A stretch of DNA of 64,000 nt from positions 3,637,908-3,701,907 of the forward strand of contig NZ_LMIS01000001.1 in NCBI RefSeq assembly GCF_001428805.1. The letters are read 5' to 3'. Below the pieces are notes generated by a model. That model was not told the DNA's origin. It ran no database searches and saw nothing but the letters and a program-made list of their open reading frames with translations. The translations under genes and the position numbers were made by a program. Below are positions 32,132 through 53,624 of the stretch, one piece after another. Positions within the stretch are counted from its first letter, which is position 1, and each line of letters opens with the position of its first letter. The DNA comes from Aeromicrobium sp. Root236. GTDB taxonomy: Bacteria > Actinomycetota > Actinomycetes > Propionibacteriales > Nocardioidaceae.

Positions 32132-32380
32132 GTGGCGAAGGCCAAACCCGACGAGATGGTCGACGAGATCGACGAGATCCGCGAGCGACTGGCGGACACC
32201 GTCGACGCGCTGATCGACCGCACGAATCCTCGCAACATCGCGCGTCGTGGCCTCTACAGCCTCCGCTCGCGATTCGTCGACGAGACGGGCTCGCCCAAGC
32301 TCGGCACGATCGTCCCGCTGGTCGGCGGCACGGTCGCCGTGGTCGCGGGCATCATCGTCATTCGCCGACTCGTGCGCTGA
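32132..32380 (+). CDS. DUF3618 small membrane protein
   Basis: This 82-residue protein has an amphipathic N-terminal part (DEIDEIRERLADTVDALIDRTNP, the DUF3618 signature) and a C-terminal transmembrane helix (GTIVPLVGGTVAVVAGIIVI). DUF3618 proteins are common in actinobacteria, often beside phage-shock-like envelope genes; their role is unknown. GTG 32132 start. The FUSC gene follows 31 nt later. Confidence 0.82.
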   Translation: MAKAKPDEMVDEIDEIRERLADTVDALIDRTNPRNIARRGLYSLRSRFVDETGSPKLGTIVPLVGGTVAVVAGIIVIRRLVR

Positions 32381-32411
32381 CCATGCGTACGTCCTCGCGC
32401 CGGAGCTGACC

Positions 32412-33530
32412 GTGAGCCCGGCGCGTGACATCCCGCTGCGTCGCCTCCGGCTGCGCAAGCCGGCCGAGTCGCTGCAGGACCGGCTCTACGTGCTGCGCCG
32501 ACGGTGGCGCACCCTCGTACGCCTGAGCCTCGGCACGGCGATCGCCTACTACATCGCGACACACGTCCTCGACCACCGGCAGGCGTTCTTCGCGCCGATC
32601 GCCTGCATCATCGTGCTGATCGCCGGTGCCGGCCTGCGCGGCCGGACGTCGTACGAGCTGGTGGTCGGCGTGTCACTCGGCGTCCTGGTGGGGGAGCTCC
32701 TGATCCTCGGCATCGGTCGAGGGACGTGGCAGATGGCGCTCGTGGTGACGCTGACGGTCGTCGTCGGGACGTTGCTCGGCCTCAAGGGTCTGGCGCTCAC
32801 ACAGTCCGCGACGTCATCGGTCCTGCTCGCGGCGGTGATCCCGGTCGCGGGTTCGGGCAACCCGGCCGTGACGCGGTTCCTCGACGCCCTGGTGGGCGGC
32901 GCGGTGGGCCTCGCGATGGTGCTGCTGATCCCGCGCAACCCGGTCCGTGACATCGACCGCGAGGTTCAGGGCTTCCTGCGGCGGTTGGCGGGCATCCTCA
33001 GTCGTACGGCGCAGGCGCTGCGCACCGTCGATGCGGCACTCGCGGACATCGCCCTCGACGAGGCGCGATCGATGCAGCCGCAGGTCGAGTCGATGACCTC
33101 CACCGCGGCCAACGTCAGCGAGATCGCCCGCATGTCGCCGATGCGCTGGAAGCAGCGAGAGCACGTCGAGACGTACGTGGCGACGGTTCGCGACCTCGAC
33201 AACGCGATCCGCGACGCACGGGTGCTGGCGCGCAAGACCTCGACGCTCCTGCGTCGGGGCGAGGTCGTGCCGCCTGACATGGACCAGGCCATCGACGCCC
33301 TGGCCCGGGCCGTCGGCATCTTCGCCGACGACCTGTCGGAGCACGAAGACTTCGACCATGCGCGGCAGGAGCTCATCGAGGCAGCGCGGATGGCCACGGT
33401 CGCGCTGCCCGCGGCGATGACGATGAACAGCGCCTCGATCGCCGCCCAGGTCCGCTCGCTCGCCGCCGACCTGCTCTACGCCAGCGGCTACACCCGGGAC
33501 GAGATCGACGACCGCCTCGAGTTTGACTGA
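32412..33530 (+). CDS. FUSC family (aromatic acid exporter-like) membrane protein
   Basis: This 372-residue protein has six hydrophobic helices in residues about 35-185, followed by a long helical cytoplasmic domain (residues 190-372). This matches the ArAE/FUSC half-transporters that export aromatic acids. GGAG 6 nt before GTG 32412 sets the start. The last codons TTT-GAC-TGA lie within a dispersed repeat (33521-33611). Substrate unknown; an export role for aromatics would fit the BenE-like importer nearby, but this is speculative. Confidence 0.82.
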   Translation: MSPARDIPLRRLRLRKPAESLQDRLYVLRRRWRTLVRLSLGTAIAYYIATHVLDHRQAFFAPIACIIVLIAGAGLRGRTSYELVVGVSLGVLVGELLILGIGRGTWQMALVVTLTVVVGTLLGLKGLALTQSATSSVLLAAVIPVAGSGNPAVTRFLDALVGGAVGLAMVLLIPRNPVRDIDREVQGFLRRLAGILSRTAQALRTVDAALADIALDEARSMQPQVESMTSTAANVSEIARMSPMRWKQREHVETYVATVRDLDNAIRDARVLARKTSTLLRRGEVVPPDMDQAIDALARAVGIFADDLSEHEDFDHARQELIEAARMATVALPAAMTMNSASIAAQVRSLAADLLYASGYTRDEIDDRLEFD

Positions 33531-33611
33531 GGTCGAGCGAGTTCTGCGAGCGAGCGCCGAAGTCAGGTTGAGCGATCGCGCCGAAGGCGCCCGATGATGA
33601 AACCTCGCGAG
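33521..33611 (+). repeat. REP-like dispersed repeat, copy A
   Basis: This 91-nt element starts inside the last two codons of the FUSC gene and supplies its TGA. A second copy is at 53278-53367 on the opposite strand. It contains a 5-bp hairpin GCGCC-GAA-GGCGC nested in AGGTT...AACCT arms. Copy B has GCGGC-GAA-GCCGC, a compensatory change. Outside a 13-14 nt variable segment, 72 of 77 positions match. Confidence 0.8.
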
Positions 33612-33625
33612 CTCACCACTCAACG

Positions 33626-33679
33626 CCACCAAAGGTGGTTTCGAGGGCGGCCGCGGCCGGCCTCCGCACCTCAACCACC
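33626..33679 (+). repeat. Second palindromic unit beside copy A
   Basis: CCACC-AAA-GGTGG is followed by GGTGGTT (33634-33640) and AACCACC (33673-33679) as 7-bp outer arms around a GGCCGCGGCC core. This looks like a second, differently oriented REP unit, so the region resembles a BIME. It ends about 20 nt before the candidate PHO box. Confidence 0.6.
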
Positions 33680-33701
33680 GAGTCCCTCAGCCAACCTTCA
33701 G

Positions 33702-33733
33702 GTTCAAGTAGCGGTGAGTTCTCGCTGAGTTCA
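33702..33733 (+). promoter_or_regulatory. Candidate PHO box upstream of alkaline phosphatase
   Basis: GTTCT (33718-33722) and GTTCATCC (from 33729) are direct repeats 11 nt apart, with another GTTCA at 33702. Streptomyces PhoP binds 11-nt direct repeats of the GTTCACC type. The site is 24 nt before ATG 33757, consistent with phosphate-starvation control. Confidence 0.45.
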
Positions 33734-33756
33734 TCCACATTCGATGGGCTGCGGGC

Positions 33757-35172
33757 ATGAACTCATACAGGGGAAACATCAACAGACGAACCGTCGCCGG
33801 CATCGCAGCAGCAGCCGTCGTGGTCGGCGTCACCGCCGCCGGTGCGATCGGTGCGACACACGACCTCTCGGCCCACGGAGGTGCCACTCGGCTCTCCGGC
33901 GACCAGAGCAAGACCCTCAAGTCCGCCATCGACGGCGGCCGGGCTGACAACGTCATCCTGCTCATCGGCGACGGCATGGGCGACTCCGAGATCACCTCGG
34001 CACGCAACTACCAGTACGGCGCCGACGGCCGGTTCCCCGGCATCGACGCGTTGCCGTTCACGGGCCAGTACACGACGTTCTCGCTGACCAAGGACGGCAA
34101 GACCGACTACGTCCCCGACTCGGCCGCGACCGGAAGCGCTTGGGCGACGGGCACCAAGACGTACGACAACGCCGTGTCGGTCGACATCCGCGGCAAGGCG
34201 CAGCCGACCCTGCTCGAGCTGGCCAAGAAGCGCGGTCTCAAGACCGGCGACGTCACGACCTCGGAGATCCAGGACGCGACGCCGGCCGTGCAGGTCTCCC
34301 ACATCTCGGCCCGCTCCTGCTACGGCCCGGTCAAGACGGCCGCGACGTGCCCCGAGGCAGCGTTGGAGAACGGCGGCCCCGGCTCGATCAGTGAGCAGCT
34401 GCTCAAGACCCGTCCCGACGTGACCCTTGGCGGAGGCGCGGCGACGTTCAACGAGAAGGCGACGGCCGGGAAGTGGAAGAACCTCACTCTCCTCGACCAG
34501 GCCGAGCGCCGCGGCTACCAGCTGCCGACCGATCTGGCCTCGCTCAACAAGATCACGAAGGCCAACCAGAAGAAGCCGGTGCTCGGCCTCTTCGGTCCGG
34601 GCAACCTGCCGGTGCGCTGGGTCGGACCGGCCGCGACGATCGACGGCAGCAAGAAGCCGGCGGAACGCTGCAAGGACAACTCGGCGCGTCCGGCGTCGCA
34701 GCCGTCGCTGGCCGCGATGACCAAGAAGTCGATCCAGCTGCTCGACAGCGGCAACAAGAAGGGCTTCTTCCTCCAGGTCGAGGGCGCCAGCATCGACAAG
34801 CAGGACCACGCGGCCGACGCGTGCGGCCAGATCGGTGAGACGGTCGACCTCGACGAGGCGGTCAAGGTGGCCCTGGACTTCGCCAAGAAGGACAAGCACA
34901 CGACGGTCATCGTCACGGCCGACCACGCCCACACCAGCCAGATCATCGAAGCCGGCAGCACCTCGCCCGGCCTCACGACGAACCTGCTGACCAACGAGGG
35001 CAGCCCGATGACCCTCAACTACGGCACCTCGCCGGCCGGCGGCTCGCAGCAGCACACGGGCACGCAGCTCCGGGTCGCGGCGTACGGACCCCAAGCGGCG
35101 AACTTCGTCGGACTGACCGACCAGACCGACATGTTCTTCACCATCTCGCGGGCTCTGAAGCTCAAGCCGTAG
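33757..35172 (+). CDS. phoA: Secreted alkaline phosphatase (PhoA type)
   Basis: This 471-residue exported enzyme has a signal peptide with NRR before the hydrophobic core (possible Tat), cleaved near residue 33. The catalytic Asp121-Ser122 lies in [13 protein letters not shown], metal ligands in [10 protein letters not shown] (near 70), and later ligands are [14 protein letters not shown] and TADHAHT. A terminal His (GSQQHTG) is the other zinc ligand. It releases phosphate from organic esters outside the cell under phosphate starvation. Confidence 0.93.
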
Positions 35173-53277: not shown

Positions 53278-53367
53278 CTCGCCGGGTTTCGTCATCGGGC
53301 GGCTTCGCCGCGATCGCTCAACCTGACTTCGGCGCTCGGCCGCTGGCGGCCTCGACCTCAGTCAAAC
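53278..53367 (-). repeat. REP-like dispersed repeat, copy B
   Basis: This 90-nt copy on the minus strand begins in the last two codons of the zinc-finger gene and supplies its TGA, as copy A does for the FUSC gene. The inner hairpin is GCGGC-GAA-GCCGC; copy A has GCGCC-GAA-GGCGC. The variable segment here (GGCCGC-CA-GCGGCC) forms its own hairpin. Confidence 0.8.
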
Positions 53368-53624
53368 AGCTCGGTGAGCCAGTGCTCCTTCTTCTTCTTG
53401 CGGTACGGCTGCTGCCGGTTGTCATGGCGCGGCTGTTCGTAGCGCGGCTCCGCGTACTGCGGCTGCGCCGGAGCGGCAGCAGGAACGTCGGCCGTCGCGC
53501 GGTCGAGGATCTTGTCGAGCTCCCCGCGGTCGAGCCACACCCCACGGCACTCGGGGCAGTAGTCGATCTCGATGCCGGCACGTTCACTCATGACGAGGGT
53601 GGCGTTGTCGGTCGGACACTTCAT
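53358..53624 (-). CDS. zf-TFIIB domain small protein
   Basis: This 88-residue protein has an N-terminal zinc ribbon (KCPTDNATL...YCPECRGVWLDRGELDKIL) of the TFIIB-type, a Pro/Gln/Arg-rich middle, and a Lys-rich KKKKEHW tail. AAGGAGG lies before ATG 53624. The final F-D-stop is encoded in repeat copy B. A role in protein or nucleic-acid binding is likely; the target is unknown. Confidence 0.88.
   Translation of the reverse strand: MKCPTDNATLVMSERAGIEIDYCPECRGVWLDRGELDKILDRATADVPAAAPAQPQYAEPRYEQPRHDNRQQPYRKKKKEHWLTELFD

Follow-up and report, generated by a model that had tools for sequence, protein, structure and literature searches.

The stretch of the Aeromicrobium sp. Root236 genome analyzed here (64,000 nucleotides, genome positions 3637908-3701907, hereafter "the window") contains two copies of a short repeat, one on each strand. 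Both copies open with GTTTGAC-TGA, which forms the last codons and the stop codon of a FUSC_2 gene in copy 1 and of a Zn_ribbon_TFIIB gene (hereafter, zf-TFIIB) in copy 2 (Table 1). In the orientation of the host gene, the parts are ordered as follows: the gene end, which includes the TGA, then the inner hairpin, the mirror arm, the second hairpin (P2) and the tail. The mirror arm is a segment inside the element, located just 5' of P2, that is complementary to the host gene end; together, the host end and the mirror arm form the first hairpin (P1), which encloses the inner hairpin. P2 consists of GGTTGAG, a GAA-type loop and CGAAACC, and the tail of TCGYGAG plus about 20 nt, so that the tail of copy 1 probably extends about 20 nt past position 33611. 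An earlier note, made from the sequence alone, had reported that the two copies are near-identical outside a variable segment of 13-14 nt, that they start at the F-D codons and TGA of unrelated genes, and that they carry the inner hairpins GCGCC-GAA-GGCGC and GCGGC-GAA-GCCGC, respectively, which lie within P2. All of this was confirmed: we counted 5 differences over about 77 positions, and a 24-nt core of the repeat occurs exactly twice in the window and in none of 100 shuffled sequences. A second palindromic repeat, GGTGGTTTCGAGG...CCTCAACCACC, lies directly behind copy 1 (window positions 33634-33680); it has 13 matches in the genome at E <= 0.01, the window copy included, two of which lie directly behind the element copies L002 and L004.

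Table 1. Positions of the two repeat copies, their hairpin arms and their host genes in the window.
Feature	Position	Strand	Domain match
Copy 1, element as given (P1, P2 and start of tail)	33521..33611	+	
Copy 1, P1 5' arm TGACT (host TGAC plus T of the FUSC TGA)	33524..33528	+	
FUSC_2 TGA stop, within P1	33528..33530	+	
Copy 1, P1 3' arm AGTCA (mirror arm), complement of host gene end	33561..33565	+	
Copy 1, P2 hairpin GGTTGAG...GCGCC-GAA-GGCGC...GAAACC	33566..33604	+	
FUSC_2 protein, host gene of copy 1, ends LEFD-stop	32247..33530	+	PF13515, E 8e-15
Copy 2, element as given	53278..53367	-	
Copy 2, P1 5' arm TGACT (host TGAC plus T of the zf-TFIIB TGA)	53360..53364	-	
Zn_ribbon_TFIIB TGA stop, within P1	53358..53360	-	
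Copy 2, P1 3' arm AGTCA (mirror arm)	53324..53328	-	
Copy 2, P2 hairpin GGTTGAG...GCGGC-GAA-GCCGC...GAAACC	53285..53323	-	
Zn_ribbon_TFIIB protein, host gene of copy 2, ends ELFD-stop	53358..53624	-	PF13453, E 3e-19

The two window copies are members of a real dispersed family that is nearly restricted to Aeromicrobium. The genome-wide search for copies that the earlier note had proposed did find further ones: a DNA search of the 3.92 Mb single-contig genome gave 16 places at E < 1e-4, and a covariance model built from 12 copies (R1) gave 19 matches at E <= 0.1 in the source genome and up to 29 in one relative. At the latter threshold R1 matched 22 of 58 genomes, namely 22 of the 37 from Aeromicrobium and none of the 21 from other families of the order. 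A larger sample of the family, searched at E <= 0.001, gave matches in 27 of 294 genomes, 25 of which belong to Aeromicrobium; copies are numerous in G000, G021, G024, G025, G034 and G069 of the genus. The two others are G083, with 7 matches, and G126, with 1 weak match; G083 (locus L316) represents another genus of the family and is a 520-contig draft with 8% contamination, and its matches may indicate either a wider spread of the element or stray contigs. The relatives that recur below are taken as A. ginsengisoli JCM 14732 (G021), Aeromicrobium sp. 9AM (G024), Aeromicrobium sp. Root344 (G027) and A. endophyticum M2KJ-4 (G034). A scan of the window against Rfam gave only three tRNAs above threshold and no family for the element, the three sub-threshold matches at positions 33400-33760 (E up to 10) not being credible. 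No prior description of the element was found in a literature search of open-licence papers.

The element is a non-coding, dispersed, palindromic sequence of about 100 nt at the 3' edge of genes, and its fold is supported by covariation. Without any prior structure, RNAalifold predicted the same two hairpins, P1 and P2, from 12 copies, in which 90.2% of the paired cells could pair versus 79.8% after shuffling. For 98 distinct copies from 17 genomes, which were fitted to the model and are related rather than independent, these values were 94.7% versus 74.6%, with a covariation score of 0.517 versus 0.169 (reached in 0 of 500 shuffles), slid controls at 25-46% and two-sided changes at 25 of 25 pairs. 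Covariation, which the earlier note had suggested computing, is therefore strong in both P1 and P2. Support from folding energy is weak. As RNA, copy 2 exceeds its shuffled versions in stability (z -2.37), and copy 1 does not (z -0.44); when trimmed to 86 nt, both copies have minimum-energy RNA folds containing P1 and P2, but with other end points the minimum-energy fold of copy 1 lacks P1, and DNA parameters give other folds. The earlier note had also argued, from the pair swap between the two window copies, that the fold is under selection. The premise holds, since the fold is kept by paired changes, but the conclusion does not follow from it, because copying between hairpin arms yields an identical pattern. 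By eye, the inner hairpin of P1 occurs in unrelated forms (CGAG-CTCTG-CGAG, GGCCGCCCGCGGCC and others), and tandem G.A mismatches recur at fixed places. Several copies (L098, L114, L122 and L185; also L012, L015 and L200) contain a palindrome of 30-40 nt, TGGGGGTCCCCC...GAGCTCTGCGAGTAGGGGG, which is nested in P2 or replaces part of the element.

Copies of the element coincide with gene ends. Among the 99 matches obtained from 100 loci, which had been picked for matching, 71 have the stop codon of a sense gene, as called by codon scoring, within -25 to +20 nt of the start of P1; controls shifted by 100-600 nt averaged 1.6, with a maximum of 6. Most of these copies stand at one exact offset, and a second class stands at a second TGA motif. 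In 5 of the remaining 28 a sense stop lies 25-300 nt upstream, and in the other 23 none was detected; 17 of the 99 have the stop codon of an antisense gene at the 3' end of the element. Together with the pairing described above, this means that the further copies keep the stem pairing and mostly stand at gene ends; the lack of either would have made the features of the window copies look like chance. L010, L066 and L191 represent an element common to three species, located in a conserved intergenic stretch with no detected sense gene end.

Comparison with relatives shows which letters the element brings along. Element-borne F-D codons were considered and rejected: the FUSC protein ends in F-D and the zf-TFIIB protein in E-L-F-D in relatives that lack the element, G008 and G030 being element-free at both genes and retaining F-D at both, and TTTGAC is also found at the FUSC end of G027, where no such element is present. 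The shared F-D is therefore older than the element. With respect to the stop codon, on the other hand, the view of the earlier note that the element brings its own gains support at some sites. The cleanest filled/empty pair is L006, at which the empty genomes G021 and G027 read GTTGCC|TAG and the filled one GTTGCC|TGA; homology resumes at TAGAGCCC, the net gain is 101 nt, and no target duplication beyond CC or T is seen around the insertion point (GTTGCC^TAG). At L189/L183 the stop codon is TAG in the empty G027 and G000, TAA in G021 and TGA in G024, and at L176 both the last codons and the stop differ from the empty sites. Judged from these alignments, the element can supply a stop codon. Other filled/empty pairs have net gains of 60-149 nt and diverged flanks, L184 being not alignable downstream. 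The ends of the element do not resemble inverted repeats of each other by eye, and its 3' boundary is fixed at few sites. At eight sites (L176, L177, L179, L181, L188, L203, L061 and L063) the host end itself is unlike that of the empty sites, frequently through C to T changes at third codon positions, after which it pairs with the usual A of the element. These altered ends suggest either that the fitting runs both ways or that some of the host letters are derived from a donor.

At most sites the 5' arm of P1 consists of the host gene end and contains or adjoins the stop codon, and in most copies the 3' arm is fitted to that end. At least 4 contiguous host letters are matched by Watson-Crick pairs in 46 of 68 copies (1000 shuffles: mean 9.7, maximum 20), and at least 3 in 54 of 68 (mean 25.7, maximum 37), the register being free within limits that were identical for the shuffles. 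The 68 copies, which include copies related to one another, derive from the 71 gene-end copies: L088 and L185, whose stop codons lie 12 and 21 nt upstream, were excluded, and the first match of L220, which has no recognised P2 start, was dropped. At several sites the host letters predate the insertion, because the same letters stand in empty relatives. Thus, at L184 in G024, the end GCGCGGC|TGA is the same in the empty G000, G021 and G027, and the arm is TCAGCCGCGC; L206, L192, L002, L006 and L189 behave likewise over 4-6 letters. At L171, also in G024, the arm is TCGGACTTA and the host end TAAGTCCGA, whose codons AAG TCC are common to G000, G021 and G027. This comparison of sites used a fixed register of the last four letters, in which copies with a long arm, such as L184 and L198, score low.

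A simpler possibility, namely that the element falls into a hairpin that already existed at the gene end, was tried and rejected. In none of 25 site-genome checks, covering 9 sites, did the 200 nt downstream of the empty site contain the full arm, and 120 ends judged empty have a mean longest mirror match of 3.94 versus 3.93 for shuffled sequences. For 66 filled ends the mean is 4.29 versus 3.72 (maximum of the shuffles 4.00); matches of at least 6 letters number 10 versus 3.3 (maximum 8), and those of at least 5 show no excess (17 versus 11.1, maximum 18). In the comparison of sites above, filled and empty ends were called by a motif rule that mislabels some of them (L203 and L206 are flagged as nowhere filled), and the test for mirror excess used a similar rule. 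At the empty sites of L184 a piece of the arm, GCCGCGC (7 of 10 letters), lies 110-137 nt downstream. At L198, CACGAC (6 of 7 letters) lies 18 nt after the stop codon in G027 and G024 and forms a hairpin with the gene end; a pre-existing hairpin may therefore apply at L198, which is not counted as a clean case. In these two genomes (L285 and L286) the end reads GCGTCGTGGGC-TGAGCG, followed 18 nt on by CACGACGC, and the hairpin, which has no P2, is either an independent gene-end hairpin or a remnant of the element.

If arms were inherited with the element, copies with closely related P2 hairpins should have related arms. Among all pairs of the 68 copies that occupy different sites, with site groups set by hand from the flanks, 8 pairs match at 46-47 of the 47 P2-plus-tail positions, and none of them has the last 4 arm letters in common. 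Over the last 7 arm positions these pairs differ at 1, 3, 3, 4, 4, 4, 5 and 5 positions (mean 3.6), which is about equal to the difference of 53% per position between distant pairs; for example, L170 (G024) and L092 (G021) are identical over all 47 positions of P2 and tail and differ at 4 of 7 in the arm. At 45 of 47 positions, 2 of 18 pairs share the last 4 arm letters. The arm thus does not track the kinship of P2, and it looks derived from the site rather than inherited. Near-identical P2 hairpins with differing arms are what copying from the site would give, whereas slow compensation should not produce them. A little arm kinship is nevertheless visible when the identity of the whole body is considered, and this counts against templated rewriting: the nearest copy at another site has an equal arm in 4 of 31 cases versus 8% of all pairs, and the 11 pairs with a body identity of at least 0.90 differ at 3-8% of the body and 25-28% of the arm per nucleotide, with the arm common in 3 of 11, versus 44-49% in the arm for more distant body classes.

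At shared sites, pairing is retained while the sequence changes. The 92-nt elements L010 and L191, which stand at the same site, differ at two positions, and these are the partners of one pair. At the zf-TFIIB end of G000, G021 and G024 (L003, L092 and L116), three unrelated P1 inner hairpins are combined with an identical GTCA arm, as if modules had been swapped or rewritten with the stem kept closed. At the L197 gene end, pairing is kept across six species.

We tentatively favor the interpretation, to which we would give a little less than an even chance, that the arm is rewritten from the host template during insertion or shortly thereafter. Copying of the host arm would overwrite an arm that does not match it, possibly by a hairpin-primed template switch: the growing strand would fold back on P1, take the gene end as its template and then rejoin the element at P2. 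Later on, pairing would be kept by the same copying together with selection on the end of the protein, with synonymous sites of the host changing as well. Reverse-complement tracts and multi-base arm differences are seen among the standing copies, and may or may not stem from single switches of this kind. The more specific claim, that the element on arrival acquires within its own body a reverse-complement copy of the 4-9 final letters of the gene, is possible but doubtful. Some observations do not sit well with templated rewriting. Fewer than 4 host letters are matched in 22 of the 68 copies and fewer than 3 in 14, many copies retain G.A mismatches in P1, the host ends at the eight sites named above differ from their empty counterparts, and at L198 two relatives without the element have a gene-end hairpin of their own. 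The stem also usually ends exactly at P2 with a fixed length, which free template switching need not give and which would be more readily expected of a functional structure or an enzyme. The main and serious rival, alone or combined with copying, is selection for a paired 3'-end structure, in which point mutations restore P1 for the sake of mRNA stability, termination or translation. The survival of pairing through sequence turnover at the zf-TFIIB and L197 ends, the two-sided change between L010 and L191, the synonymous TTC to TTT changes in hosts that pair the usual A of the element, and the sense orientation at 71 of 99 gene ends are all in line with it, as is the finding that relatives without the element at L198 also pair their gene end. 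The result at L198 makes selection slightly more likely and rewriting slightly less so. However, arms that differ equally between copies with near-identical P2 and distant copies are unexpected under slow compensation, many of the gene ends stand without the element in close relatives, and the empty ends as a class show no excess of pairing. On balance, selection as the explanation of the fitted arm seems less likely to us than rewriting. In the cell, the hairpins probably lie in the 3' end of the mRNA, where they would be tolerated or mildly useful.

Two further explanations were considered. A guide of 4 nt at the foot of P2 could pair with a host tetranucleotide and direct insertion there, so that the match would come before the insertion, as in IS608, where the host tetranucleotide is likewise at the left flank and its partner 5' of the hairpin base according to the sections cited of PMC5934647. 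The clean insertion at L006 would suit this, as would the G at position -3 in 37 and the T at -4 in 23 of 44 distinct sites, which are raw counts read against no background. But a guide should be inherited, and the 4-nt arm is common to none of the 8 pairs with near-identical P2 and to 4 of 31 nearest neighbours, versus 8% of all pairs. Moreover, the matches of 7-9 host letters at L184, L171, L218 and L016 exceed a tetranucleotide, and a Y1 transposase was detected in 0 of 49 Aeromicrobium genomes; we regard insertion by such a guide as improbable. Alternatively, both arms may travel together, with recombination between similar gene ends (F-D, F-A or F-G followed by the stop) converting the last codons of the recipient to those of the donor. 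The TTT codons and altered last codons at the filled L177, L181, L188, L176, L061 and L063, the recurrent TTTGNN-TGA and the partial arm kinship by whole body could all be read in this way. However, at L002, L006, L184, L192, L206 and L189 the host letters are those of the empty site and the arm fits them, and no donor with the end of L184 or of L171 is present among the 68 copies compared, which makes joint transfer a poor candidate. The reading that we consider least credible, and largely refuted, is that of the earlier note: a REP-type element that is moved by a RAYT transposase and carries its own TTT-GAC-TGA, or else a mobile terminator module. The element is indeed palindromic, lies near 3' ends and sometimes supplies the stop (L006 and L183), and PMC3733652, in the sections cited, describes REPs supplying a TAG stop. 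But F-D is ancestral, and the Y1_Tnp domain (PF01797) was found neither in the source genome nor in any of the 49 Aeromicrobium genomes searched, with controls found in 5 of 14. The terminator module has no support from the window copies, in which neither hairpin is followed by a T-run, P2 being followed by letters of the TCGYGAG type.

With respect to known systems, the element can be compared with REP/BIME sequences and their RAYT transposases; in the portions cited of PMC3733652, REPs are short dispersed palindromes, mostly intergenic and near 3' ends, that can give a stop codon. The extragenic position near 3' ends is shared (71 of 99). By eye, however, the GTAG/CGTC tag at the foot of the REP hairpin is absent, and most copies have the variable mirror arm followed by GGTTGAG or GGTCGAG; furthermore, the element resides in a genus in which no Y1 transposase was found (49 genomes), reaches tens of copies at most, and has an arm whose sequence changes from one host site to the next. 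YPAL/RU-2, ERIC, RUP and Correia elements are, in the descriptions at hand, also non-coding, dispersed, shorter than 200 nt and provided with stem-loops, and those descriptions do not mention pairing with host letters. In contrast to them, neither terminal inverted repeats nor a consistent target duplication were seen in the present element. The MIRU of mycobacteria are short intergenic actinobacterial repeats that overlap stop and start codons, and we know of no pairing between MIRU and the host sequence. To our knowledge, the only close geometric parallel is IS608 of the IS200/IS605 family. In the sections cited of PMC5934647 and PMC8266576, IS608 has the target TTAC, a host tetranucleotide at its left flank and a guide, the partner of that tetranucleotide, at the 5' foot of a hairpin. 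Guide and target are both fixed in IS608, whereas the partner in our element, though present, differs per site, may comprise 7-9 nt and lies behind an additional hairpin, and TnpA was not found. Quasipalindrome mutation by template switching is similar in that it involves reverse-complement copying between imperfect hairpin arms, with multi-base paired changes, and can both create and repair stems, as the parts cited of PMC8794818 describe. It differs in being a general process tied to no element, while here it would have to act in a similar way each time at dozens of sites where a single repeat has inserted. Likeness to attC-type core sites and to a hammerhead-like core (CTGATGACGAAAC) was informally weighed and set aside.

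What looks like an ordinary palindrome at gene ends thus has an unusual trait, in that most copies have one arm of the first hairpin matched to the preceding gene, which may point to rewriting of the repeat at each site. Paired changes in stems are routinely read as proof of selection for an RNA structure, and short tracts give little power to separate copying from compensation (PMC8794818, in the part cited). The family described here offers dozens of replicated cases for this question: it combines many insertions with known empty sites and near-identical P2 hairpins, and because only one of the two arms is protein-coding, copying between the arms can be distinguished from slow compensation. 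If the arm is written at insertion, this would represent a novel mode by which repeats become established at gene ends, by an inverted rather than a direct copy of the target, with the first hairpin closed by the host end and stop codon. Such an insertion mechanism would be unlike those of REP/RAYT, IS200/IS605, small mobile sequences, quasipalindrome mutation and MIRU. The other type of repeat may carry a mirror arm too: at L099 in G021, a convergent end beside the thymidine kinase gene, GGTCGACTT-GGTTGAGG comes after the gene end AAGTCCGAC-TGA.
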